Shown here: positions 39,050-50,755 of the stretch, one piece after another | How positions within the stretch are numbered: the stretch's first letter is position 1 | How the letters are laid out: every line of letters begins with the position of its first letter | NCBI GenBank assembly: GCA_020161695.1 | Contig: JAIUOO010000010.1 | Span: 1-64,000, forward strand | Length of the DNA: 64,000 nt | Source of the DNA: Pseudomonadota bacterium | GTDB lineage: Bacteria > Pseudomonadota > Alphaproteobacteria > Rhizobiales > Phreatobacteraceae | Direction of reading: 5' to 3' | Notes under the pieces: generated by a model | What the model saw: only the letters and a program-made list of their open reading frames with translations | Told to the model about the DNA's origin: nothing | Databases searched by the model: none | Position numbers and translations under genes: made by a program

Positions 39050-39157
39050 TCGTCGCCTCACCGCTCCGATCAGGTCGCTGCCGTGCGTTCGGAGCGACCT
39101 TTCGACCAGCTCCGGAGGGCTTCGCGGGCAGCGCTGGAGGGTGCGTCGTTCAAACGG

Positions 39158-40129
39158 ATGATGAAGCTCCGGGCCGGGCATCGGAAAAAACTCGCCGGAC
39201 TTCAAGCGGGGTTTGCCATGGCTCCGGCGCATCTGCGAACAGCATCGGGGGAACAAGGCCCGGAGGCATCGACGCCGCGGGCAGCCGAGGTTGCGACGCA
39301 GACCAGACGCGGTCTCGTGCGTGAAACCGGCCTCCCCTTCGTGTTCCTGTTCCCCGGATCGGTCGGCTATGGCCGAAGCCTCGCCGCGCTGGCCGGGGTG
39401 ATGGCGGGAACCGCCCAGATCGTCCCGGTCCGCTACCCGGATCTTCGGATGATGCTGGCCGGGCGCGCGTCGCTGGCGGCCATGGCCGACGACGCCATGG
39501 AGCAGATCGGCCGCAGGCAGCCGACCGGACCGGTCCGCCTCCTCGGGCATTCGCTCGGCGGCGCAGTGGCGTTCGAGGTCGCCGGCCGGCTTCTGGAAGG
39601 CGGCCGCTCGGTACGGTTTATCGGCATTCTCGACACGAGCATCCTCGGCGAGCGTTCGGAATACCGCGAGACCTTGTCGCGCACCGTGCAGCGCATCCGC
39701 ACCAGCCAGGTGACGGCCGCGCGGATGGCCTGCCGGGGCATTGCCAAGATCGCGGCACGCCTCGGCTGCGAGGGCCTGCTCGCGCGCATGGTCGATCGCA
39801 AGGGCAATAGCCAGTTCAACGCCACGCGCTTCCGCATCACGCTCGAACTGCAGGAAGTGCTGCGCTCGCGGGCGTTCTTTCGCTGGCTGGACCAGCCGAA
39901 GGCTTCCCTGCCGCTGACCGCCACGCTATTCCGCTGCGCGCGCAAGGACATGCCGCAGCATCTCGGCTGGGACGGCCTGTTCGCGAGGCTCGACGTCGTC
40001 GCCATCGATGGCGGCCATATCGACCTGATCATGCAGCCGCACCTGACCCGCAACCATCCGCTGATCGAAGCGGCGGTGGTCCGCTCCTACGCGCCGACGG
40101 AACTCGCGCTGCGTGGAGCGGCGTCATGA
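39158..40129 (+). CDS. alpha/beta-hydrolase thioesterase
   Basis: A protein of about 323 residues of the thioesterase type found in non-ribosomal peptide and polyketide clusters: FVFLFPGSVGYGRSLAALA near the N-terminus, nucleophile elbow GHSLGGAVAFEVAGRLLEGG, and a distal GGHIDLIMQPHL carrying the catalytic His. It should release or transfer an acyl group from a carrier protein such as that at 44758. The start is uncertain: ATG 39158 is used, with a GTG at 39083 and an ATG at 39218 as alternatives. It overlaps the next gene by four bases. Confidence 0.82.
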   Translation: MMKLRAGHRKKLAGLQAGFAMAPAHLRTASGEQGPEASTPRAAEVATQTRRGLVRETGLPFVFLFPGSVGYGRSLAALAGVMAGTAQIVPVRYPDLRMMLAGRASLAAMADDAMEQIGRRQPTGPVRLLGHSLGGAVAFEVAGRLLEGGRSVRFIGILDTSILGERSEYRETLSRTVQRIRTSQVTAARMACRGIAKIAARLGCEGLLARMVDRKGNSQFNATRFRITLELQEVLRSRAFFRWLDQPKASLPLTATLFRCARKDMPQHLGWDGLFARLDVVAIDGGHIDLIMQPHLTRNHPLIEAAVVRSYAPTELALRGAAS

Positions 40130-41133
40130 ACCGGGTGGCCTCCGTCGCGCACTATCGGGCCTTCGACAGGGACATCCTGAGGCTCGATGCGGCGGCGGAG
40201 ACGGATCGCATCGTGGAGGTGCTCTCGGGGCAGGTTCTCGCCATTCTCGGCCGCCGCGGCGCGGTCGTCGGCCTGTCCGGCGGCGTCGACAGTTCCGTCG
40301 TCGCGGCGCTCTGCGCGCGAGCGTTCGGGCGCGAGAGGGTTCTCGGCCTGCTGATGCCCGAACACCATTCCTCCGGCGACTCGCTGAGGCTCGGGCACGT
40401 CATCGCAGCGGCGCTCGGTATCGAGACGATGGTCGAGGATATCGGGCCGGCACTCGGCGCGCTCGGCGCTTATCGCCGGCAGGACGAGGCGATCCGCACG
40501 GTGGTGCCGGACTATGGCGAGGGCTGGAAATGCAAGCTCGTCCTGCCGTCGATCCGCGAGAGCACCGGCATCAACATCACGCGCCTGACGGTGCAGGACC
40601 CTGAAGGCGCTGTCCGGACCGTGCGCCTGCCGCCGGACGCCTACCTCAAGCTCGTCGCGGCGACGAATTACAAGCAGCGCCTGCGCAAGATGAGCGAATA
40701 TTACCACGCTGACCGGCTGCGCTATGCGGTGATCGGCACGCCCAACCGGCTGGAGCACGATCAGGGCTTCTTCGTCAAACAGGGCGACGGGATGGCCGAT
40801 GTCATGCCGATCGCGCATCTCTACAAGACCCAGGTCTACCAGCTCGCCGAGCATCTCGGCGTGCCGGAGGAGATCCGGCAGCGGCCGCCGACCACCGACA
40901 CGTTCTCGATGCCGCAGAGCCAGGAGGAGTTCTATTTCGCGCTCCCCTACGATCTGATGGACCTCTGCCTCTATGCCGCGGACCATGGCATTGCCGCCGA
41001 GGCCGTCGCGGCCGCCACCGGCCTGACCGCCGAACAGGTGCGCCGGGCGTTCCGTGACATCGAGGCCAAGCGCCGCGCCTCCCGCTATCTCCATGCGCGG
41101 TCCCTTCTCGTCACCCCGGTCGCGGCGGAGTGA
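40126..41133 (+). CDS. NAD-synthase-like ATP pyrophosphatase (amide-forming)
   Basis: A 335-residue protein with the PP-loop SGGVDSSVVAALCARAFG near residue 52 and NAD-synthase-like segments LGLLMPEHHSSGDSL and VKQGDGMADVMPIAHLYKTQVYQLAEHLGVP. The usual GTGNKSE is GTPNRLE, and a segment around GINITRLTVQDPEG looks inserted. It has no glutaminase domain, unlike typical alphaproteobacterial NadE. Within this operon it is more likely to adenylate and amidate a carboxylate than to make NAD, perhaps using ammonia from the AsnB-like neighbour. Confidence 0.82.
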   Translation: MNRVASVAHYRAFDRDILRLDAAAETDRIVEVLSGQVLAILGRRGAVVGLSGGVDSSVVAALCARAFGRERVLGLLMPEHHSSGDSLRLGHVIAAALGIETMVEDIGPALGALGAYRRQDEAIRTVVPDYGEGWKCKLVLPSIRESTGINITRLTVQDPEGAVRTVRLPPDAYLKLVAATNYKQRLRKMSEYYHADRLRYAVIGTPNRLEHDQGFFVKQGDGMADVMPIAHLYKTQVYQLAEHLGVPEEIRQRPPTTDTFSMPQSQEEFYFALPYDLMDLCLYAADHGIAAEAVAAATGLTAEQVRRAFRDIEAKRRASRYLHARSLLVTPVAAE

Positions 41134-41137
41134 TGAC

Positions 41138-43156
41138 ATGTGCGGCATGGCAGGGATCGTGTCTCTCGGCGTGTCGGCACCGCCTCCCGCGCGCGACGCC
41201 CTGATCCGGATGGCCGGCGCGCTCGTGCACCGTGGACCGGACGAGCAGGGCATCTATCGCGACGAGCGGGCGGGCCTTGCCCATGCACGGCTGTCGATCA
41301 TCGACATCGACGGGGGCGGGCAGCCGCTGTCCGATGCCGATGGCGCGGCTTGGATCGTCTTCAACGGCGAGATCTTCAACTATGTCGAGCTGCGCGCCGA
41401 ACTGGCGGCGCTTGGCTATCGGTTCCGCACCCGGAGCGACACCGAGGTGATCGTCCAGGCCTGGCGCGCCTGGGGCGAGGCGGCCTTCGAGCGGATGAAG
41501 GGTCAGTGGGCGCTGGCGCTCTGGGAGCCGGCGGGGCGCCGCCTGATCCTGTCGCGCGACCGGACCGGCATCTGTCCGCTCTATCTCTGCGAACATGGTG
41601 GCCGCGTCCTGTTCGCCAGCGAGGTGAAGGCGATCTTCGCGGCCGATCCGGCAATTCCCCGCGCCTTCGATCCGGCAGGGCTCGACCAGACCTTCACGCT
41701 ATGGGCTCCCGTCGCGCCGCAGGGCGTCTTCGCGGGCATCCGCGAACTCGCGCCGGGCCATACCCGCATCTATCGGGACGGCACCGCGCGCGAGCGCTGT
41801 TTCTGGCAGCCGCGCTTCCCCGAAGGCTCCGGCGAGGGTTTCGCCGGCTCGCTGGACGACGCCGTGGAGATGGTGCGCGAGGCTCTCGACGCGGCGGTGT
41901 CGCTGCGCATGGTCCGATCGGACGTGCCGGTCGGCAGCTATCTTTCCGGCGGCCTCGACAGTTCGCTTGTCGCCGCCATGGGCCGGCGCTTCGCGGGCGA
42001 GCGGTTCCAGACTTTCTCGCTGCGCTTCGCCGATGCCGAGTACGACGAAACGGATTTCCAGCGCCTGATGGTGCGCAGGACCGGGAGCGAGCACCACGAG
42101 CTCGTCGTCGAACGACGCGACATCGCCCGCATCTTCCCCGATGTCGTCCGCCACGGCGAACGGCCGATCCTGCGGACCGCGCCCGCGCCGCTGTTCCTCC
42201 TGTCGCGGATGGTGCGCGAGGCCGGCATCAAGGTGGTGCTGACCGGCGAGGGGGCCGACGAGGTCTTCGCCGGCTACGACCTGTTCCGCGAGGCCAAGGT
42301 CCGCCGCTTCTGGGCGTCTCAGCCCGATTCAGCCTGGCGCTGGCGGCTGATCGAGCGGCTCTATCCCTATCTGTCCCGGTCGCCCGTCCGCCAGCAGGCC
42401 ATGGCGCGGCAGTTCTTCGGGCATGGTCTTGCCGGCAGCGCCGATCCGGGCTTCGGCCACGATACGCGCTGGCGCACGACCGGCGCGATCAAGCGGCTGT
42501 TCTCCGCCGACCTGAGCGCGCGCATCGCGGGCGAGGATGCCGTGTCGAGCCTCATCGACGGCCTGCCGCCGGCGTTCGCGCGCTGGGAGCCGCTGGCGCA
42601 GGACCAGTATCTGGAGATGCGGACGCTGCTGTCGGGCTATCTCCTGTCGGCGCAGGGCGACCGGATGCTGATGGCCCATTCGGTCGAGGGCCGCTTCCCC
42701 TTCCTGGACGAGGACGTCATGGCGGTGGCGAACGCCCTGCCGGCCGCCCACAAGCTGCGCGTGCTCGACGAGAAGCATGTCCTGAAACGCGTCGCCGCGC
42801 CGCTCGTCCCACCCGAGATCGTGGCGCGGAAGAAGCAGCCCTACCGCGCGCCCAACGCCTTGTGCTTCTTCGGCGCGGACGCGCCTGAACATGTCGGGGA
42901 CATGCTGTCGGAGGCGGCGCTTCGCGATGCGAACGTGTTCGATCCCGCCGCCGTCATGCACCTCGTCTCGAAATGCCGGAAGCATGCGGAGGATGGCGGC
43001 GGCGATCTCTCCAATTCCGACAACATGGCGCTGGTCGGCGTGCTGTCGACCCAGTTGCTGCACCACCAGTTCGTCGCCAGCCGTCCGGATGCCGCAAGGC
43101 CTCCGGCCCTGGCGACCGACATCGACCACCTGCACCGCGCAGAGGCCTTCGCGTGA
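41138..43156 (+). CDS. asnB: asparagine synthetase-like glutamine amidotransferase
   Basis: A 672-residue two-domain enzyme. The class II glutaminase begins MCGMAGIVSLG, so Cys2 becomes the N-terminal nucleophile, and has LVHRGPDEQG and the FNGEIFNYVELR segment. The synthetase domain has SYLSGGLDSSLVAAMGRR, the PP-loop ATP site. It resembles the amidotransferases of exosortase and capsule loci as much as housekeeping AsnB. Lasso cyclases share this fold. The family start decides the ATG at 41138. It shares one base with the ligase gene that follows. Confidence 0.88.
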   Translation: MCGMAGIVSLGVSAPPPARDALIRMAGALVHRGPDEQGIYRDERAGLAHARLSIIDIDGGGQPLSDADGAAWIVFNGEIFNYVELRAELAALGYRFRTRSDTEVIVQAWRAWGEAAFERMKGQWALALWEPAGRRLILSRDRTGICPLYLCEHGGRVLFASEVKAIFAADPAIPRAFDPAGLDQTFTLWAPVAPQGVFAGIRELAPGHTRIYRDGTARERCFWQPRFPEGSGEGFAGSLDDAVEMVREALDAAVSLRMVRSDVPVGSYLSGGLDSSLVAAMGRRFAGERFQTFSLRFADAEYDETDFQRLMVRRTGSEHHELVVERRDIARIFPDVVRHGERPILRTAPAPLFLLSRMVREAGIKVVLTGEGADEVFAGYDLFREAKVRRFWASQPDSAWRWRLIERLYPYLSRSPVRQQAMARQFFGHGLAGSADPGFGHDTRWRTTGAIKRLFSADLSARIAGEDAVSSLIDGLPPAFARWEPLAQDQYLEMRTLLSGYLLSAQGDRMLMAHSVEGRFPFLDEDVMAVANALPAAHKLRVLDEKHVLKRVAAPLVPPEIVARKKQPYRAPNALCFFGADAPEHVGDMLSEAALRDANVFDPAAVMHLVSKCRKHAEDGGGDLSNSDNMALVGVLSTQLLHHQFVASRPDAARPPALATDIDHLHRAEAFA

Positions 43157-44706
43157 TGGACACCGCCGTTCCGTTGCTGCACGACCACCTCATCCGTTCG
43201 GCCTGCCGAAGCCCGGAAAAGGTCGCCCTCGTCTGCGGCAGGCGCCGCGTCACCTATGACGAGCTCGATGCGAGCTCCGACGCGCTGGCGGCGCACCTCG
43301 CCACTGCGGGCGTCGCCCGGGGCGACCGCGTCATGATCTTCGCGGACAATACGGTCGAGGCGGTCGTCGGCTTCTGGGCGACGCTGAAGGCCAATGCGGT
43401 GGCCTGCCTGATCAATCCGCTGACCAAGGCCGACAAGCTCGACTATCTCCTGCAGGACTGCCGGCCGGCGGCGTTCATCACCGATGCGCACCTGCACGCA
43501 GCGTTCGGCGATCCGGTTCGCCGCGCCAGCTTCCTCAAGCGGGTGGTCGTCAGCGGCGAGGCCGGCGATTCCGAACCGATCAGGCTGCCGCGCGCGGTCC
43601 GGTGGGAGGTGGCGACGACGGCGCACGGCGCGCCGCCGGTGCCGCGCTGCATCGACATCGACCTCGCGGCGATCGTCTACACGTCGGGATCGACCGGCGA
43701 TCCCAAGGGCGTGATGCTGACCCACCGCAACATGCTCACCGCCTGCGCGTCGATCGCCTCCTATCTCGAGCTGCGCGAGGACGAGGTGATCCTCAACGTC
43801 CTGCCGCTGGCCTTCGACTACGGCCTCTACCAGATGATCATGGCTTTCAGCGTCGGCGCGCGGCTGGTGCTGGAGCGGTCCTTCGCCTTCCCGGCGCAGA
43901 CGATCCGGGTCCTGTCCGAGGAGAAGGTCACCGGACTTCCCGGCGTGCCCACCGTCTTTTCCACGCTGCTCGGCTTCAAGTCGCTTCGCGGCAGCGACCT
44001 CGCCAGCATCCGCTATGTCACCAATACCGGCGCGGCGCTGCCGGTGAAGCACATCCAGATGCTGCGGGAGCTTCTGCCGGCGGCCCGGATCTATTCGATG
44101 TACGGGCTCACCGAGTGCAAGCGCTGCACCTACCTGCCGCCGGAGGATATCGACCGGAAGCCGGAAAGCGTCGGCATCGCCATTCCGAACACCGAAATGT
44201 GGATCGTGGACGAGGGCGGCCGGCGGCTCGGTCCCGGCCTCGTCGGCCAGCTGGTGATCCGAGGCGCGACCGTGATGAAGGGCTACTGGGGCAAGCCCGA
44301 GGCGACCGCCGAGAAGCTGAAGCCCGGGCCGCTGCCCGGCGAGCAGGTCCTCCACACCGGCGACTACTGCCGCATGGACGAAGAGGGCTATCTCTATTTC
44401 GTCGGCCGCAGCGACGAGATCATCAAGTCGCGCGGCGAGAAGGTCGCGCCGAAGGAGGTCGAGAATGTCCTGATGGGCATTCCCGGCGTCAAGGAGGCGG
44501 CCGTCATCGGGGTTCCCGACGACCTGCTCGGCGAGGCGGTCAAGGCCTTCGTGGTGATCGAGCAGGGGACGGCGATCGGCGAGGCGCAGATCCGCAACGA
44601 GTGCCGCCGGCGCCTCGAGACCTTCATGGTGCCGAAGCACATCGACATCGTCGCCAGCCTGCCGAGAACCGATACGGCGAAGATCAACAAGCGGGCTCTG
44701 TCATGA
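43156..44706 (+). CDS. acyl-adenylating ligase (AMP-binding, ANL family)
   Basis: A 516-residue enzyme with ANL motifs AIVYTSGSTGDPKGVMLTH, MYGLTECKRCTYLPPED, HTGDYCRMDEEGYLYFVGRSDEIIK and the C-terminal catalytic lysine region DTAKINKRAL. It resembles the AMP-forming ligases linked to exosortase A and to carrier proteins more than catabolic acyl-CoA synthetases. It should activate a carboxylic acid as acyl-AMP and load it on the carrier encoded next. The start at 43156 overlaps the previous stop (TGATG). Confidence 0.88.
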   Translation: MDTAVPLLHDHLIRSACRSPEKVALVCGRRRVTYDELDASSDALAAHLATAGVARGDRVMIFADNTVEAVVGFWATLKANAVACLINPLTKADKLDYLLQDCRPAAFITDAHLHAAFGDPVRRASFLKRVVVSGEAGDSEPIRLPRAVRWEVATTAHGAPPVPRCIDIDLAAIVYTSGSTGDPKGVMLTHRNMLTACASIASYLELREDEVILNVLPLAFDYGLYQMIMAFSVGARLVLERSFAFPAQTIRVLSEEKVTGLPGVPTVFSTLLGFKSLRGSDLASIRYVTNTGAALPVKHIQMLRELLPAARIYSMYGLTECKRCTYLPPEDIDRKPESVGIAIPNTEMWIVDEGGRRLGPGLVGQLVIRGATVMKGYWGKPEATAEKLKPGPLPGEQVLHTGDYCRMDEEGYLYFVGRSDEIIKSRGEKVAPKEVENVLMGIPGVKEAAVIGVPDDLLGEAVKAFVVIEQGTAIGEAQIRNECRRRLETFMVPKHIDIVASLPRTDTAKINKRALS

Positions 44707-44757
44707 GCCGCTCCCCGTTCCGGCCGGCGAATGTCATGAGATGAGGAGGGTGAACCG

Positions 44758-45042
44758 ATGATGCGAGAAACGGCGGCGCTTGGCGCCTGCAGGGATCAGG
44801 TCCGCGCCTTCCTGGCAGCGAATTTCTATGTCGGCGACATGGCCGCGCTGCGCGACGACACATCGTTGATCGACAAGGGCATCATCGATTCCACGGGGGT
44901 GCTTGAGGTGGTGGGCTTCATCGAGCAGACCTTCGGTATCGCGGTGGACGACAGCGAACTGCTGCCGGAGAATCTCGACACCATCCAGGGCATCGCGGCC
45001 TACGTGATCCGCAAGCAGGAGGAGCCGGTCACCAGCGGCTAG
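44758..45042 (+). CDS. acyl carrier protein
   Basis: A 94-residue carrier. The phosphopantetheine serine is in LIDKGIIDSTGVLEVVGFIEQTFGI (IDS in place of the usual DSL), with a following DLDTI-like helix (ENLDTIQGIAAYVIRKQ). It lies 51 bases after the ligase, which most likely charges it. The charge pattern fits a stand-alone ACP rather than a PCP in a large synthetase. GAGGAGG upstream supports the start at 44758; the second ATG one codon later is equally possible. Confidence 0.88.
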   Translation: MMRETAALGACRDQVRAFLAANFYVGDMAALRDDTSLIDKGIIDSTGVLEVVGFIEQTFGIAVDDSELLPENLDTIQGIAAYVIRKQEEPVTSG

Positions 45043-45127
45043 GCTCATTCCGTCGCGGCAGAATGGCCGCGGACGCTGCGTCACGTCGCCGTTGCGCTCG
45101 ACCGGCCGCGTAGGGCATACGCGTCTG

Positions 45128-45898
45128 ATGGATGTCGCGATCAAGCTGTCTCTGGCGGGTGGCCACGCGTGGGAATTCGTGTGCGACGAGAACGACCCGA
45201 TGGTGATCGGGGTCGTCTCGGCGCTGCCCGGCGCGACTGTCGATGCCAATCTGCCGCCGGACGGGCTGGTGCAGGTGGAGAATCGCGCCGGAGAGCGCCT
45301 CTATTTCTCGCGCACGTCGCTGGTCGCGGTTTCCGTCCGGCATGTGCCGGCAGCTCCGAATGCCCCAAAGCCCGGTTCGCCGGCCCTGCGGCCGCCACGC
45401 TTCCTGCTGCTGCCGGCGGTGCTGCCCCGCGAGGCGTCAGCGGAAGCCATGGCGCTTCCCGAAGTGGAGGGCCGCGGCCATCCCGCGCCGGGCGTGCAGG
45501 ACGTGGTCGACCCGCAATCTCTGCCCGCCGCTGTCGTCGATGCGCTTGTCGCTGCCGCCGCGCGAGGCGTCGCGGCTCTTGAGGTCGATGCCAGCGGGGG
45601 AACCCATCTCGATATCCGCCTGATCCGGGCGGGCGCGGGCGCGGCCTTTGCCCTGCCGGTGGGCGATGCGGCCGACGTCCTGCTCGACGTGCTGGTCGTG
45701 CTGGAAGCGCCGCTCGGGCTTTCGGTCCGGCTCGCCGGCGACGGCAGCGGACGTGGTCTCGGTCTGGCCGAGGGCGACATCCTGCTGGTGCCCCCGGCTG
45801 AAGCGGGCGCGGCCATCGGGGCGGGCGATCCCTCGCCATCGCCCGTCATCCTGCTGGCGGGCCGCCTCATCCGGGGCGAGCGCCTTGCCGCCGCCTGA
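45128..45898 (+). CDS. hypothetical protein, possibly a degenerate oxygenase-fold protein
   Basis: A 256-residue protein, MDVAIKLSLAGGHAWEFVCDEND... The N-terminal 70 residues (to TSLVAVSVRHVP) are a beta-rich domain; then PPRFLLLPAVLPREASAEAM resembles the linker that opens many prolyl-hydroxylase-like 2-oxoglutarate oxygenases. The rest is beta-rich with one HLD (in GGTHLDIRL) but no later His or Arg for an iron site. I therefore call it unknown, with a decayed double-stranded beta-helix as a weak guess. It overlaps the fusion kinase gene by 14 bases. Confidence 0.6.
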   Translation: MDVAIKLSLAGGHAWEFVCDENDPMVIGVVSALPGATVDANLPPDGLVQVENRAGERLYFSRTSLVAVSVRHVPAAPNAPKPGSPALRPPRFLLLPAVLPREASAEAMALPEVEGRGHPAPGVQDVVDPQSLPAAVVDALVAAAARGVAALEVDASGGTHLDIRLIRAGAGAAFALPVGDAADVLLDVLVVLEAPLGLSVRLAGDGSGRGLGLAEGDILLVPPAEAGAAIGAGDPSPSPVILLAGRLIRGERLAAA

Positions 45899-47036
45899 AC
45901 CGGCATTGCCCGTTCGCGGCGCCAGCTTCTTTCCCATCGCCGATGGCGGGATCGTCTATCTCGACCGCGTTCGACGGCTGTACGGACTGAATGCTCCGGC
46001 GGCGCTGGTCTGGCGCGACCTGACCGAAAGCGCGGCCCCGGCCGAGACCGTGGCGCGGCTTGCCGAGGCCTATTCGCTCGACGCCGCGACCGCGCATGAG
46101 TGGCGCGACCTTGCCGTCAGGTCGTTCGCCGAATCGATCCTGAGGGATGCGGCGGAAGCTGCCGATGCGCCGGACGCGCCGCACGTCGCGGATCCACGCC
46201 CCTTCGACGCGGGAGTCGTCTATCGCCTGCTCGGCCAGCCCGTCCACGTCGATGCGCCCGCTGCCGTTCTCGACGGCATCGATACGCTTCTCGGCGACCG
46301 GATGATCCCGGCCCGCGCACCGGCGAGCGCGGACGCGCTCTGGGTCCGGGTCACGCCGGAGGGCGGGCACCTGCGCGTCGAGAGCGGCGGCGATCCCCCG
46401 ACGGTCGAAACCCGCGAGACGGTCGTGCCGGACGTGGAACGGCGCATCGTTCAGGACATCGTCCCCCGCGTGCCGCATTTTCTTGCTTTCCACGGCGCGC
46501 TGCTGGCACAGGGCGACCGGTCGGTCCTGCTCTCCGCGCCGTCAGGTTCGGGCAAGACCACGCTGGCGCTGGCGCTCGCAAGGGCCGGCTGGTCTCTCCT
46601 GACGGACGAGATGGCTCTGCTCGATCGCGATCTCGGCTGGCGCGGCCTGCCGTTCCGACCCTGTGTGAAGAGCGACAATTACGGCCTGATCGCAGCGGCC
46701 TTCCCGGAGCTCGGCGATGCGATGGAGCACGTCCGATTCGGCCGCAAGGTGAAGTTCCTGCCGCTGCCGCTCGACACGCGGCGCCTGACGTTGCGGACGG
46801 TCGTCTTTCCCCAGTACCGGCCCGGACCGGCAACCGAACTGATGCCCATTTCGCCAGCTGACGGCCTCCAGCGGCTTCTCGCGCAGTGCATCTACGTGCC
46901 GCCCGGATTCGGCGAGGAAGACGTTACCCGGCTCATATCCTGGCACGATGGCACGAATTACTACGCGCTTGGCTTCGGCGATTCGCAGTCTGCATCGAAA
47001 CTTATCAACGGTGCCGATTTTTCAAGCTTGCGTTAG
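45885..47036 (+). CDS. PqqD-HprK-like fusion protein (peptide-modifying kinase candidate)
   Basis: A protein of about 383 residues. Residues about 10-90 (VYLDRVRRLYGLNAPAALVWRDL..., AETVARLAEAYSLD) match the PqqD/leader-recognition winged helix. The C-terminal part is HPr-kinase-like, with a P-loop LLSAPSGSGKTTLALALARAGWSLLTDE (about 214-241) and FRPCVKSDNYGLI. It resembles the HprK-related kinase A and PqqD pair of HPr-rel-A loci, here fused. PqqD domains bind leader peptides, and HprK-like enzymes in lasso peptide loci phosphorylate the precursor. No ATG fits; a TTG at 45885 is the best start. Confidence 0.8.
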   Translation: MPPPEPALPVRGASFFPIADGGIVYLDRVRRLYGLNAPAALVWRDLTESAAPAETVARLAEAYSLDAATAHEWRDLAVRSFAESILRDAAEAADAPDAPHVADPRPFDAGVVYRLLGQPVHVDAPAAVLDGIDTLLGDRMIPARAPASADALWVRVTPEGGHLRVESGGDPPTVETRETVVPDVERRIVQDIVPRVPHFLAFHGALLAQGDRSVLLSAPSGSGKTTLALALARAGWSLLTDEMALLDRDLGWRGLPFRPCVKSDNYGLIAAAFPELGDAMEHVRFGRKVKFLPLPLDTRRLTLRTVVFPQYRPGPATELMPISPADGLQRLLAQCIYVPPGFGEEDVTRLISWHDGTNYYALGFGDSQSASKLINGADFSSLR

Positions 47037-47090
47037 GGAAGCTCGGCGGATAGTGGTCTCGGGTCTTTGATCAATGGCCGGAGGTTCCGC

Positions 47091-47288
47091 GTGGCGCCCA
47101 AGAATCCGATGGACAAGGTGTCTGACCGCGACCGCCGCCAGTTTCTGGACAAGGCTGGCCGCTTCGCGGCCGTGACGCCGCCGACCGTCGCCCTCATGCT
47201 GTCGGCGACCGGACGCGCACGCGCTCAGGCCACCTCGGGCACGACCACCACCACCACCACGACGGTCACGACGTCGACGCCAGTCTAA
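47091..47288 (+). CDS. leader-like small peptide with poly-Thr tail (candidate precursor)
   Basis: A 65-residue peptide starting with GTG at 47091, six bases after a GGAGG site. The first half (SDRDRRQFLDKAGRFAAVTPPTVALMLSATGRARAQ) looks like a Tat-type signal or PqqD-recognised leader; the tail is TSG, eight Thr, V and TTSTPV. It follows the PqqD-HprK gene by 54 bases. I infer that it is the substrate, with the Ser/Thr tail as possible phospho-acceptor. Such small proteins are often missed. A later in-frame ATG at 47109 is possible. Confidence 0.7.
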   Translation: MAPKNPMDKVSDRDRRQFLDKAGRFAAVTPPTVALMLSATGRARAQATSGTTTTTTTTVTTSTPV

Positions 47289-47299
47289 CCGCTCTAAAC

Positions 47300-47316
47300 C
47301 CGCTCCTCGGGGGCGG
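47300..47316. terminator. hairpin between convergent genes
   Basis: CCGCTCC TCG GGGGCGG forms a 7-bp stem with one G-T pair in the 31-base gap between the peptide gene and the convergent TPR gene. There is no T-tract, so it is at best a weak bidirectional terminator. Confidence 0.3.
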
Positions 47317-47319
47317 CGT

Positions 47320-49125
47320 CTATGCGGGTATTGCGAGCTGGCGCAGTTCGCCTTCCATCGCGCCGAACGCGTCATGCCAGTAGGTCGGTGACGACTGCCT
47401 GAACAGCCGCATCGACGGATACCAGACGGATGTCGGTGTTTCGCGCTGCCAGCGCCATTCCGGTGCGGCCCTGAGGGCTGTCCAGACCGGGCGGCCGAGC
47501 GCACCGGCCAGATGCGCGATCGACGTGTCGCAGGAAATCACCAGATCGAGACATTCGATGGCCGCGGCGGCATCGACGAAGCCGTCGTCGCCCGAATCGA
47601 AATCCTCGCCGAGCGTCTCGATCCTGTGACCGTTCGGCAGCGGCGGCAGGTCGCCGATCGCCGCTTCGGTATGAAGGCTGATCAATCGGACGCCGGGAAT
47701 TGCGGCGAGCGGGGCGAACTGGTCCTCGCCGAAGGACCGGGCGTCGTTGTTGCTGCCGCGCCAGGCGATTCCGACCCGGAAGCCCTTCGACCCGATGCGG
47801 GTGCGCCATTTCTCGACGAGGCCGGGCTCCGCCGAGAGCCATGGCGCTGTCGGTATCGGCTCGCCCATGCGCTGGAATCGCTCGGGCAGGCTCATCAGGT
47901 GGCACTGATGGTCGAAGCGCATGCCGGCCGTCAGCCCGGTGATGATCTCGATATCGCCCGCGAGCCCCGCGAACAGCCGCTTGAGCCGCGATGGCGTGAA
48001 GAACTGCACCTTCGCGCCCAGCGCGACGAGACGCGGCAGATGCGACGAGAACTGGATGTAGTCGCCATTGGCCTGTTCGCCGAGCACGAGGATCGACCGG
48101 CCGGCGAGGGGCTCGCCCAGCCAGGGCGCGGCAATCAGGTCCTCCCGCGCGCCCTTCTGGTTGTCCTTGGTGAAGCGGTGCTCGTAGCCCGCCCATCCGG
48201 GCCCGAACTCGCCGCGCGTGAGGTGGATGCAGCCCTTGGTGAACCGGACGGACCGCGAATCCGGTTCGATCGACAGCGCCCGGTCGATTGACAGGACGGC
48301 CTCGTCGAGACGGCCGAGATCGGCAAGCGCCATGGCCATGTTGGCGTGAGCCGCGGCAAAGGTCGGCTTGAGGACGAGCGCCCGCCGGAACGCGTCCAGC
48401 GCCTCGCCGAGCTGGCCGTTGGAGCGCAGCGCGCAGGCGAGCTCCTGCCATGCGTTGGCATCGTCAGGGCGCGCATCGACGACCCTGCGCAGCAGGTCGA
48501 TCGCCGGCGCGGGGCGGGTTGCCTCGACGAACCGCCGAGCGAGAAGCTGCGCGGCCTCCAGCTGGTCCTTGTACCGGTGGCAGATATCCTCGAGCGCAGC
48601 GGTCGCCTCGTCGTCGCGCTTCAGGTCGGCAAGTGCCCGGGCGCGCTCGAGCAGGACCAGCGGATGGTCGGGCGCAAGCGCAGTGCCGCGCTCCGCGACC
48701 GCGAGCGCCATGTCCGGTTTGCCGGCGAGGCGGAGGCAGGCTGCCTGCCCGGACAGGGCGTCGATATCCTCCGGGCGCGCCGCGAGGATGTCCTCGAAAT
48801 TGACGCGGGCATCGGTATGCCGCCCCAGGGCGAGAAGGGCCCGGGCGAGCGCCATCTTGCTGGCCTCGGCGGCTGGTGCGTATTGCAGCGCCCGCTCGAA
48901 GCTCCCCAGCGCATCGGCATGGCGGCCGAGGGCGACGAGCGCGCTGCCCAGCGCATGCGCCGCATCTGCATCGTCAGGGCTCGCGTGGAGAACGGCGCGC
49001 CAAGCTTCGACCGCATCCTCATGCCGGCCGGCCTGGCTGAGGCCAAGGGCCTCGCGTCGCCGCAGCGCAAGAGTGGTGGCTGTCCCGTCCGTTGCCATGC
49101 CGAGCGTGGGCATCGAGATGATCAT
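47320..49125 (-). CDS. TPR-repeat protein with GT9-like glycosyltransferase domain
   Basis: A 601-residue protein. Residues about 15-330 are some nine TPR units (for example EALDAFRRALVLKPTFAAAHANMAMALADLG). The C-terminal half (about 350-595) resembles the heptosyltransferase/GT9 fold: ILVLGEQANGDYIQFSSHLPRLVALG, VGIAWRGSNNDARSF and LDLVISCDTSIAHLAGALGRPVW. It may glycosylate a protein or peptide bound by its TPRs. AAGGG six bases before the ATG at 49125 supports that start. It heads a minus-strand group facing the peptide operon. Confidence 0.85.
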   Translation of the reverse strand: MIISMPTLGMATDGTATTLALRRREALGLSQAGRHEDAVEAWRAVLHASPDDADAAHALGSALVALGRHADALGSFERALQYAPAAEASKMALARALLALGRHTDARVNFEDILAARPEDIDALSGQAACLRLAGKPDMALAVAERGTALAPDHPLVLLERARALADLKRDDEATAALEDICHRYKDQLEAAQLLARRFVEATRPAPAIDLLRRVVDARPDDANAWQELACALRSNGQLGEALDAFRRALVLKPTFAAAHANMAMALADLGRLDEAVLSIDRALSIEPDSRSVRFTKGCIHLTRGEFGPGWAGYEHRFTKDNQKGAREDLIAAPWLGEPLAGRSILVLGEQANGDYIQFSSHLPRLVALGAKVQFFTPSRLKRLFAGLAGDIEIITGLTAGMRFDHQCHLMSLPERFQRMGEPIPTAPWLSAEPGLVEKWRTRIGSKGFRVGIAWRGSNNDARSFGEDQFAPLAAIPGVRLISLHTEAAIGDLPPLPNGHRIETLGEDFDSGDDGFVDAAAAIECLDLVISCDTSIAHLAGALGRPVWTALRAAPEWRWQRETPTSVWYPSMRLFRQSSPTYWHDAFGAMEGELRQLAIPA

Positions 49126-49199
49126 GGTCGACCCTTAGCGGTGTCCGCGGCCGGCGCGCAGCGGAAGGTCTGGCGACGGGCCGGAGTATGATGTCCCGG

Positions 49200-50348
49200 T
49201 CATCCCCGCAACAGCCTTCCGAGGCCCGTCCAGGCCCGGGTGATGCGGCGACGATTGACCTTGAGCCGGGCGCCGACGTCGCGCCGGTCGCCGAGCCCGA
49301 GGGAGAAGGCGTCGCGTTCCCAGGCAAGGCCGCGCGACAGGTTGGCGAGCGGCCGCAGCGCGCGGTCCAGCGGGGGCCATCGGCGCTGTATCAGGCATCG
49401 CCGCAGGTGCCGCCGGCCGCGCGCGTCCTGCGCGAACGGCTCCGGCGGCGGGCAGGCCGAGACGAAAGCCGCCTTGTGGAGCCCGCCGGCCAGGGCAGGG
49501 CCCATGCCGCGTTCACCGGCTTCGCGGGCGAGCACGGTCCAGTCGAGCGTGGCCGCGGAGGCCTGCATGAGGCGTCCGAGGTCCATTGCCTCGCGCAGGT
49601 CGATGATGCCGCCCGCGCGATTGCCGTTGACGATCTCGCCGTGGATGACGTTGTGCAGGATGCGGTGGCGCGGCGAGGGAATGGCGAGCCCCGGCGCGAC
49701 GGGCACGGCTTCGGCGAGCATGTCCGCGCCCGACAGCATGCGGGTGCGCGTGGACAGGGCGGTGTGAACCTCGACGCTGACCGGGTGCCCGGCATGTTCC
49801 AGCGGCCATTCATGGATATGGGCCTGTTCGGTGCCGATCGTGCCCGACGGCAGGAAGCCGGCGAGGGCGAGCGAGCGCATCGCCGTGTCGAGATCGTCCG
49901 ATGCGACCAGCAGGTCGATGTCCCGCATCATGCGGTCGCCCGAAGCGGGGCCTGCCTCGAACAGCCAGGCGGCACCCTTGAGAACAACGCCCGTCACGCC
50001 GGCCGCGTCGAGCGCATGGCCGATGGCCAGTGCCTCCGTGCGGATCGCGGCATTGCCATCGGCATTGGCGGCGAGGGCATAGTCCAGATAGGAGGCGACA
50101 TCGGCCGGGATCCGGCTTCTGACGCCGGCATCGTCGAGAACGGTTGCCAGCATCGGCAGAGCGAAATCACGGGCCGCCAGCGCGACGGTCGCCATCCAGT
50201 CGATGGCATTCTCGGAAAGGTCGGCAACGGAACCGCGCCGTCCGGAGCGCCAGACGAGCCAGGCAGCCAGAATCTGCTCGGCCGGCGGTGCAGGAGGTGT
50301 CGCTGCCGCCGTCGTGGCCCGAGCCGTGTCGCGCGCCTCAGGGCTCAC
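49200..50348 (-). CDS. nucleotidyltransferase, NTP_transf_5 family
   Basis: A 382-residue protein with the polymerase-beta-like core GVVLKGAAWLFEAG...RMMRDIDLLVASDDLDTAMRSL (GxxxxR...D-I-D), and VEVHTALSTRTRM and HRILHNVIHGEIVN downstream, typical of NTP_transf_5. These genes are found beside HprK-like kinases in HPr-rel-A and lasso peptide loci, where they extend a phosphate or transfer a nucleotide. Here it is 3 kb from a PqqD-HprK fusion. The start is a GTG overlapping the DUF6165-like stop (GTGA). Confidence 0.85.
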   Translation of the reverse strand: MSPEARDTARATTAAATPPAPPAEQILAAWLVWRSGRRGSVADLSENAIDWMATVALAARDFALPMLATVLDDAGVRSRIPADVASYLDYALAANADGNAAIRTEALAIGHALDAAGVTGVVLKGAAWLFEAGPASGDRMMRDIDLLVASDDLDTAMRSLALAGFLPSGTIGTEQAHIHEWPLEHAGHPVSVEVHTALSTRTRMLSGADMLAEAVPVAPGLAIPSPRHRILHNVIHGEIVNGNRAGGIIDLREAMDLGRLMQASAATLDWTVLAREAGERGMGPALAGGLHKAAFVSACPPPEPFAQDARGRRHLRRCLIQRRWPPLDRALRPLANLSRGLAWERDAFSLGLGDRRDVGARLKVNRRRITRAWTGLGRLLRG

Positions 50349-50755
50349 GTCACGTCCCGATAGCTCTTCTCCTCGACAAAAGCCGAGCCGACCGCCGCGT
50401 TGATGGCACGCTTCACCCGCGCCCGCTCGTCGTTGGTCAGATAGACGGCCCGGGCGAGGGCCACGAAGGAGGCACCGAAATCACCCGTCCGTTCGCAGTC
50501 GCGAATGTCATCCTCGATGGTCCACAGGCGCTCGTTGATGGCCTGAAGTTCGAGGATCGACGCGTGCAGGTCGGGGCCTGCGGCGGGGAAGTGGGTCGAC
50601 AGAACCTGCTCCAGCGCAGCCAGTTCCTTGCGGACATTGGCCAGCTTGGCGGAATCGGCGATCCGTTCCGATTTGATCCTGAGGATCGTGATCTTGTCGA
50701 TCAGTTCACCGGCCGACGCCGGGACCATGAGAACGATGCTGTCGGTGTCCTGCAT
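50345..50755 (-). CDS. DUF6165-like protein
   Basis: A 136-residue soluble helical protein with VPASAGELIDKITILRIKSERIADSAKLANVRKELAALE and, at the end, NDERARVKRAINAAVGSAFVEEKSY. This conserved pattern is what I know as DUF6165, often found near glycan or TPR/GT9-like genes; function unknown. It is coupled to the nucleotidyltransferase by a four-base overlap and is first in the minus-strand group. Confidence 0.75.
   Translation of the reverse strand: MQDTDSIVLMVPASAGELIDKITILRIKSERIADSAKLANVRKELAALEQVLSTHFPAAGPDLHASILELQAINERLWTIEDDIRDCERTGDFGASFVALARAVYLTNDERARVKRAINAAVGSAFVEEKSYRDVT

Follow-up and report, generated by a model that had tools for sequence, protein, structure and literature searches.

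In the 64,000-nucleotide window analyzed here (positions 1 to 64,000 of contig JAIUOO010000010.1, from an alphaproteobacterium of the Phreatobacteraceae), a gene encoding a RiPP recognition element (RRE; RiPP, ribosomally synthesized and post-translationally modified peptide) fused to an HprK-like kinase is followed by a gene for a 65-residue peptide, and a gene for an NTP_transf_5 nucleotidyltransferase-fold protein lies nearby on the other strand (Table 1). The sequence evidence suggests that the products of this gene set phosphorylate a near-invariant Ser residue of the peptide and may attach a further group there. We consider it probable that the peptide is a RiPP-like precursor accompanied by its maturation set, with RRE-guided Ser phosphorylation followed by a nucleotidyltransferase (NTase) step and export. 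This reading is built on the domain identities of the proteins, a gene set conserved across genomes, the co-occurrence of peptide and enzymes, the pattern of leader and tail, and the conserved Ser. All three genes are present where an earlier note on this DNA had placed them, and under the names it had given them.

Comparison with a sister species (genome G011, locus L002) indicates that the peptide is a real gene under purifying selection over codons 1-49, because the changes in that part are all synonymous: nine synonymous and no replacement changes were counted there, two and three in the tail codons, and 63 and 47 in the gene of the fusion. The GTG start is preceded by GGAGG, and none of the Pfam and NCBIfam models covers the peptide family. 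Its leader follows the consensus RRxFL..(C/A)G(R/K)FA.VTPP, in which R, R, F, L and T are invariant in 101 distinct peptides. The main conserved feature past the leader is a Ser-Gly, the Ser standing 18 residues after the PP, beside an AxA-like site, in 97 of the 101. The tails differ widely in length and are rich in Gly/Asn, His, Cys, or Thr, many of them being nearly without Ser or Thr; that of the window peptide consists almost entirely of Thr and Ser and shows no conservation with relatives other than L002. It was this poly-Thr tail that the earlier note had proposed as the site of modification. Given that the tails vary completely but the post-leader Ser is retained, the tail appears to be a poor candidate target and Ser49 the best candidate for a phosphate acceptor. 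The leader also occurs in other settings: in three Bradyrhizobium cassettes (L099, L139, and L143) a second, Gly/Ser-rich peptide of about 145-150 residues with the same leader lies on the opposite strand, and at L060:8427-9338 (genome G138) three tandem peptides share the leader and carry Cys-rich tails that lack the conserved Ser, the fusion of that genome being located on another contig.

Starting from a small alignment of the peptide, we found relatives across the class and subsequently 204 stretches in named genomes; the top 80 of these, representing 78 distinct loci, were retained. Query-free clustering of every open reading frame (ORF) around these 78 named loci and 18 further ones showed the two commonest neighbor families to be NTP_transf_5 (40 loci) and the fusion (37 loci). 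Hidden Markov models built from these clusters detected both in 35 of the 78 named loci, where the two genes usually adjoin each other within about 1 kb of the peptide. A survey of 347 genomes from the order detected the peptide in 11 of them and a strong fusion match (E <= 9e-70) likewise in 11, with nine having both (Fisher P 1.7e-14, a value that overstates independence because the genomes fall into few families); the remaining two peptide genomes encode a near-full-length, weaker fusion (1e-40 to 1e-43). Moreover, in 30 of the 31 genomes whose fetched peptide locus is devoid of the enzymes, a full-length fusion (E <= 1e-97) is encoded at another place, which suggests that a single enzyme set can act on several precursors dispersed over the genome. 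Shared neighbors of these distant peptides were looked for and none was found. Neither a recurring dedicated SpI-like peptidase nor an MsbA-like transporter stands beside the peptide (the neighbor clusters were judged by sequence, not all of them by family search), and no gene for a B2-like peptidase was present among the neighbors scanned. The set is present in many bacteria of soil and nodules, among them Sinorhizobium, Bradyrhizobium, and Mesorhizobium; on pSymB of S. meliloti the corresponding genes are annotated as 'serine kinase', 'nucleotidyltransferase family protein', and 'hypothetical protein'.

Loci fetched for the fusion alone were inspected as well: short leader peptides adjoin even far-diverged fusions, three of them in tandem at L157, and NTP_transf_5 is also present at such loci; in G045 and G651 the peptides lie far from the fusion. 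The peptide at L160 reads ...AAAMSNPDV, the tails at L154, L158, and L161 end in HSGC, and YxxP-like motifs are confined to some of the sister families (L157, L160). A conserved small peptide beside homologous fusions, on which the earlier note had made its proposal depend, is thus found by query-free clustering, by co-occurrence and at the fusion-side loci, and the peptide's proposed role, there put forward by inference, gains strong comparative support. Two loci of the window's own genus hold a sister family next to an unfused HprK-like kinase, with seven tandem peptides ending ...AQ(V/A)ANGSG... at L165:5615-7384 and two peptides at L067:9459-10099; their common pattern is SKRxTLDxLxKGAAFAxPxVASFAMDGL...QVANGSG, in which KR replaces RR and A-x-P is kept.

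The protein encoded at 45885-47036 is a lasso-type RRE/PqqD domain fused to an HprK-like kinase with an intact P-loop, as had been read from the sequence. The curated libraries leave it unnamed because both of its scores fall below their cut-offs, namely 22.2 bits for Pfam PqqD with the window fusion alone, just short of 23.4, and 68.3 bits (E 5.8e-19; relatives 67-70 bits) for HprK_rel_A (TIGR04352) as compared to 200; its identity is settled by the family profiles. The four best PDB matches of the N-terminal profile, TbiB1 (1.3e-9), TfuB1 (1e-6), PbaB1 (1.4e-5), and LppB (0.004), are all solved RRE proteins from lasso systems and systems of linear polyphosphorylated peptides (LPP). In the AlphaFold2 (AF2) model, residues 13-93 show the beta-beta-beta-alpha-alpha-alpha order of a winged helix-turn-helix with a three-stranded sheet, and this part superimposes on TbiB1 in Foldseek with a template-modeling (TM) score of 0.78 and a root-mean-square deviation (rmsd) of 1.7 over 76 columns. 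The kinase half resembles HprK/P and phosphoenolpyruvate carboxykinase (PEPCK) by fold and HprK by profile; the top VIA-align rows are PEPCK structures only, whereas Foldseek and the profile search did find HprK. His203, Gly221, Gly223, Lys224, Thr226, Asp241, Lys262, and Arg284 are invariant in an alignment of 17 diverse fusions, and the P-loop SGSGKTT, His203, and Asp241 are intact in the window protein. With respect to the HPr-rel-A loci named in the earlier note, in which HprK-related kinase A, PqqD, and an NTase are encoded separately, the present set resembles such systems in its kinase superfamily and in the same trio of functions, but it falls outside the group as NCBI defines it: the fusion stays under the 200-bit cut-off, the domains are fused, and a precursor peptide is identified here.

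The NTP_transf_5 gene, pointed out previously as a neighbor on the other strand, belongs to the gene set in general, as seen from the 40 loci of the query-free clustering. The window protein scores 118.9 bits with PF14907 (gathering threshold 31.2, E 3.6e-34), and K123, G124, L128, R138, D142, D144, and H235 are invariant in all 33 aligned sequences. Its AF2 model has a predicted local distance difference test (pLDDT) value of 83, and the best structural matches, all of them weak, are TglT, ANT(2''), LnuA, CCA enzymes, and FKRP.

The closest parallel is offered by the LPP system, studied with Paenibacillus genes in B. subtilis, in which a stand-alone RRE, an HprK-like kinase, and an SpI-like peptidase together give a linear peptide with several phosphates on core Ser3, adjoining a signal-peptidase-type cleavage site (Popov et al., 2026, PMC13381572). 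Both systems have an RRE of the lasso B1 type, an HprK-like kinase, an NTP transferase, and a linear precursor with a conserved leader and a variable C-terminus; no macrolactam cyclase belongs to the conserved set, and the phospho-Ser of LPP lies just past the signal-peptidase-type site. By contrast, the RRE is separate in LPP and fused to the kinase here, the leader is YxxPxVLxHQ (YxxPxVLxHQxIxFETxxS) in LPP and RRxFL..GRFA.VTPP here, and the dedicated SpI-like peptidase and MsbA-like transporter of LPP have no recurring counterpart. The hosts of LPP are Bacillota, whereas those of the present system are Alphaproteobacteria with precursors dispersed over the genome. Phosphorylated lasso peptides of the paeninodin/pseudomycoidin type likewise involve an HprK-like kinase, an RRE, and an NTase acting on a precursor Ser (PMC8498205), but neither a B2 peptidase nor a lasso cyclase is among the recurring neighbors here. 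In pseudomycoidin the nucleotidyltransferase adds one or two hexoses to the phosphorylated lasso peptide (PMC8498205). Twin-arginine signal peptides share the RRxFL(K), the apolar stretch, and the AxA with the leader, yet G[R/K]FA.VTPP is conserved inside that stretch and the peptide co-occurs tightly with one enzyme set. Linear peptides served by an RRE, an HprK-like kinase, and an NTase are already known from Bacillota; what is new is the fusion, the twin-arginine-like leader, the lack of a recurring dedicated peptidase or transporter, the host range, and the trans-acting arrangement with several precursors. A literature search for the HPr-rel-A name, PF14907, the peptide family, and the present system found no paper, most subscription journals lying outside its coverage.

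Following this, we propose that the RRE of the fusion grips the conserved leader RRxFL..GRFA.VTPP and that Ser49 is thereby presented to the HprK-like kinase half of the same polypeptide, where it would be phosphorylated, possibly polyphosphorylated. NTP_transf_5 might then transfer a nucleotide- or sugar-derived group onto the phosphate. The leader, which is also twin-arginine-like and ends in AxA, may be cut by signal peptidase during export, so as to release a mature peptide that begins close to the modified Ser and ends in a lineage-specific tail, and one enzyme set per genome would handle several precursors, adjacent or distant. Each of these steps, from leader binding through phosphorylation and the NTase reaction to export and cleavage, is inferred; phosphorylation of Ser49 and further transfer are proposed because the anatomy (RRE, leader, Ser beside an AxA-like site, and NTase) parallels that of LPP. 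A wider generalization, namely that rhizobia and other Alphaproteobacteria harbor a widespread RiPP-like class with a dual leader (RRE-binding and twin-arginine translocation (Tat) type), Ser phosphorylation by a self-contained RRE-kinase, an NTase cap, release by ordinary signal peptidase, and dispersed precursors, is possible, although we put it forward tentatively. The proposal gives uncharacterized genes in model symbionts a testable role and names the residue to examine, and with it RRE-guided phosphorylation, described for Bacillota and for lasso peptides, would reach linear peptides of alphaproteobacterial origin. As a natural union of RRE and kinase that would work on precursors supplied in trans, the fusion could also serve as a compact tool with which to phosphorylate peptides of choice.

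Several observations weigh against the proposal. The three Cys-rich peptides of G138 lack the conserved Ser in a genome that has the fusion; G353 has the peptide and no fusion match in its genome, G173 and G181 have it with weak, partial fusion matches only, and no peptide is evident near the fusion at L152. In the window itself, the second Asp of the DD motif of the kinase is Glu242, and the NTP_transf_5 gene stands two genes from the peptide on the opposite strand, with a tetratricopeptide repeat (TPR) gene between them. When fusion and peptide were folded in AF2 as a single read-through chain, by way of the frame they share, the peptide remained undocked and disordered with pLDDT below 50; this is the sole such model and was computed from a flawed alignment. 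Finally, deletion of the LPP NTase LppN made no difference in the B. subtilis host (PMC13381572). The G138 peptides, together with the Thr/Ser tail of the window peptide, would fit a precursor that is matured by the RRE-kinase but modified elsewhere, in the tail, or that yields an unphosphorylated product by another ATP-dependent reaction, since the kinase fold is also like that of PEPCK, which is not a protein kinase. We regard this as unlikely: the tails are not conserved and many are nearly free of Ser and Thr, in contrast to the post-leader Ser, which 96% of the peptides retain, and the characterized peptide-acting HprK-like relatives are Ser kinases (PMC13381572, PMC8498205).

The invariant RRxFL and the AxA ahead of the variable part, as in Tat signals, and the many copies far from the enzymes could also mean that the peptide is a small Tat-exported protein whose signal is kept for export, the kinase and NTase acting elsewhere and being linked to it by regulation alone. 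General Tat export needs no particular kinase, however, and yet the fusion is found in 30 of the 31 genomes with distant peptides; moreover, the supposed hydrophobic core holds a conserved charged residue (G[R/K]F) and a conserved TPP, the sister family at L165 has KR for RR with A-x-P kept, and the domain joined to the kinase belongs to the peptide-binding RREs, so that a role in export alone seems quite improbable. That the small partner adjoins a kinase, and that the top, weak structural match of the NTase model is a TglT-type toxin (Foldseek E 0.02), would fit a peptide that regulates or inhibits the RRE-kinase as its ligand instead of being modified by it, the two forming a toxin-antitoxin or sensor-like pair. 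A substrate role accords better with the presence of several different peptides per enzyme, the hypervariability of the tails, and the conserved Ser, and the fold matches of the NTase are a mixed set of NTases; we hold a ligand or inhibitor to be highly improbable.

The features of the window locus are collected in Table 1. The peptide ORF begins 54 bases beyond the fusion gene on the same strand, and the fusion gene, at its TTG start, runs over the last 14 bases of the ORF before it. The fusion stop (TAG, 47034-47036) and the peptide share one frame with no other stop between them (47034-47090), and the same holds in L002. This is taken as chance, because at other loci the peptide gene is far off or on the opposite strand; genuine stop read-through from fusion to peptide was dropped as an explanation, given that the peptide is on the other strand at L063 and elsewhere in the genome in many species.

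Table 1. Features of the RRE-kinase locus and its surroundings in the window.
Feature	Position	Strand	Remarks
RRE/PqqD–HprK-like kinase fusion	45885-47036	+	TTG start, 383 aa; RRE residues 1-93, kinase about 110-383
RRE domain (PqqD-type, lasso B1-like; three-stranded sheet and three helices)	45885-46163	+	AF2 model, Foldseek, and profile matches
Kinase catalytic core	46491-46610	+	His203, P-loop SAPSGSGKTT (G221, G223, K224, T226), Asp241-Glu242; invariant alignment columns
Predicted precursor peptide, 65 aa	47091-47288	+	GTG start; Shine-Dalgarno ggagg at about 47080
Peptide leader motif RRQFLDKAGRFAAVTPP (R15-P31)	47133-47183	+	R, R, F, L, T invariant in 101 distinct peptides
Ser49 codon, predicted phosphate acceptor, after AxA-like ARAQAT	47235-47237	+	Ser spacing kept in 97/101; putative acceptor role by analogy with LPP Ser3 (PMC13381572)
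Variable Thr-rich peptide tail	47238-47285	+	3 replacement changes in 17 codons (tail and stop) as compared to L002
TPR protein with weak GT9-like C-terminus (glycosyltransferase family 9)	47320-49125	-	Between peptide and NTP_transf_5
NTP_transf_5 nucleotidyltransferase-fold protein, predicted second modifying enzyme	49200-50348	-	Pfam E 3.6e-34, invariant residues, weak Foldseek NTase matches
DUF6165 protein	50345-50755	-	Next after NTP_transf_5

Upstream of the fusion and in the same direction, positions 39083-45898 hold genes for a thioesterase-like protein, an NAD synthase-like protein, AsnB, an AMP ligase, an acyl carrier protein, and a 268-residue ORF, which together look like a small assembly-line operon. 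Participation of AsnB, AMP ligase, and acyl carrier protein in the system found no support, these genes being absent beside the other cassettes searched with them. AsnB (41141-43156) was also considered as a lasso cyclase and rejected: it scores 184.7 as compared to the lasso cut-off of 525 and passes as an asparagine synthase. The AMP ligase scores below the exosortase-A-associated cut-off. The 268-residue ORF, for which no family match was obtained, overlaps the start of the fusion and has a clear relative within the genus only in G011.

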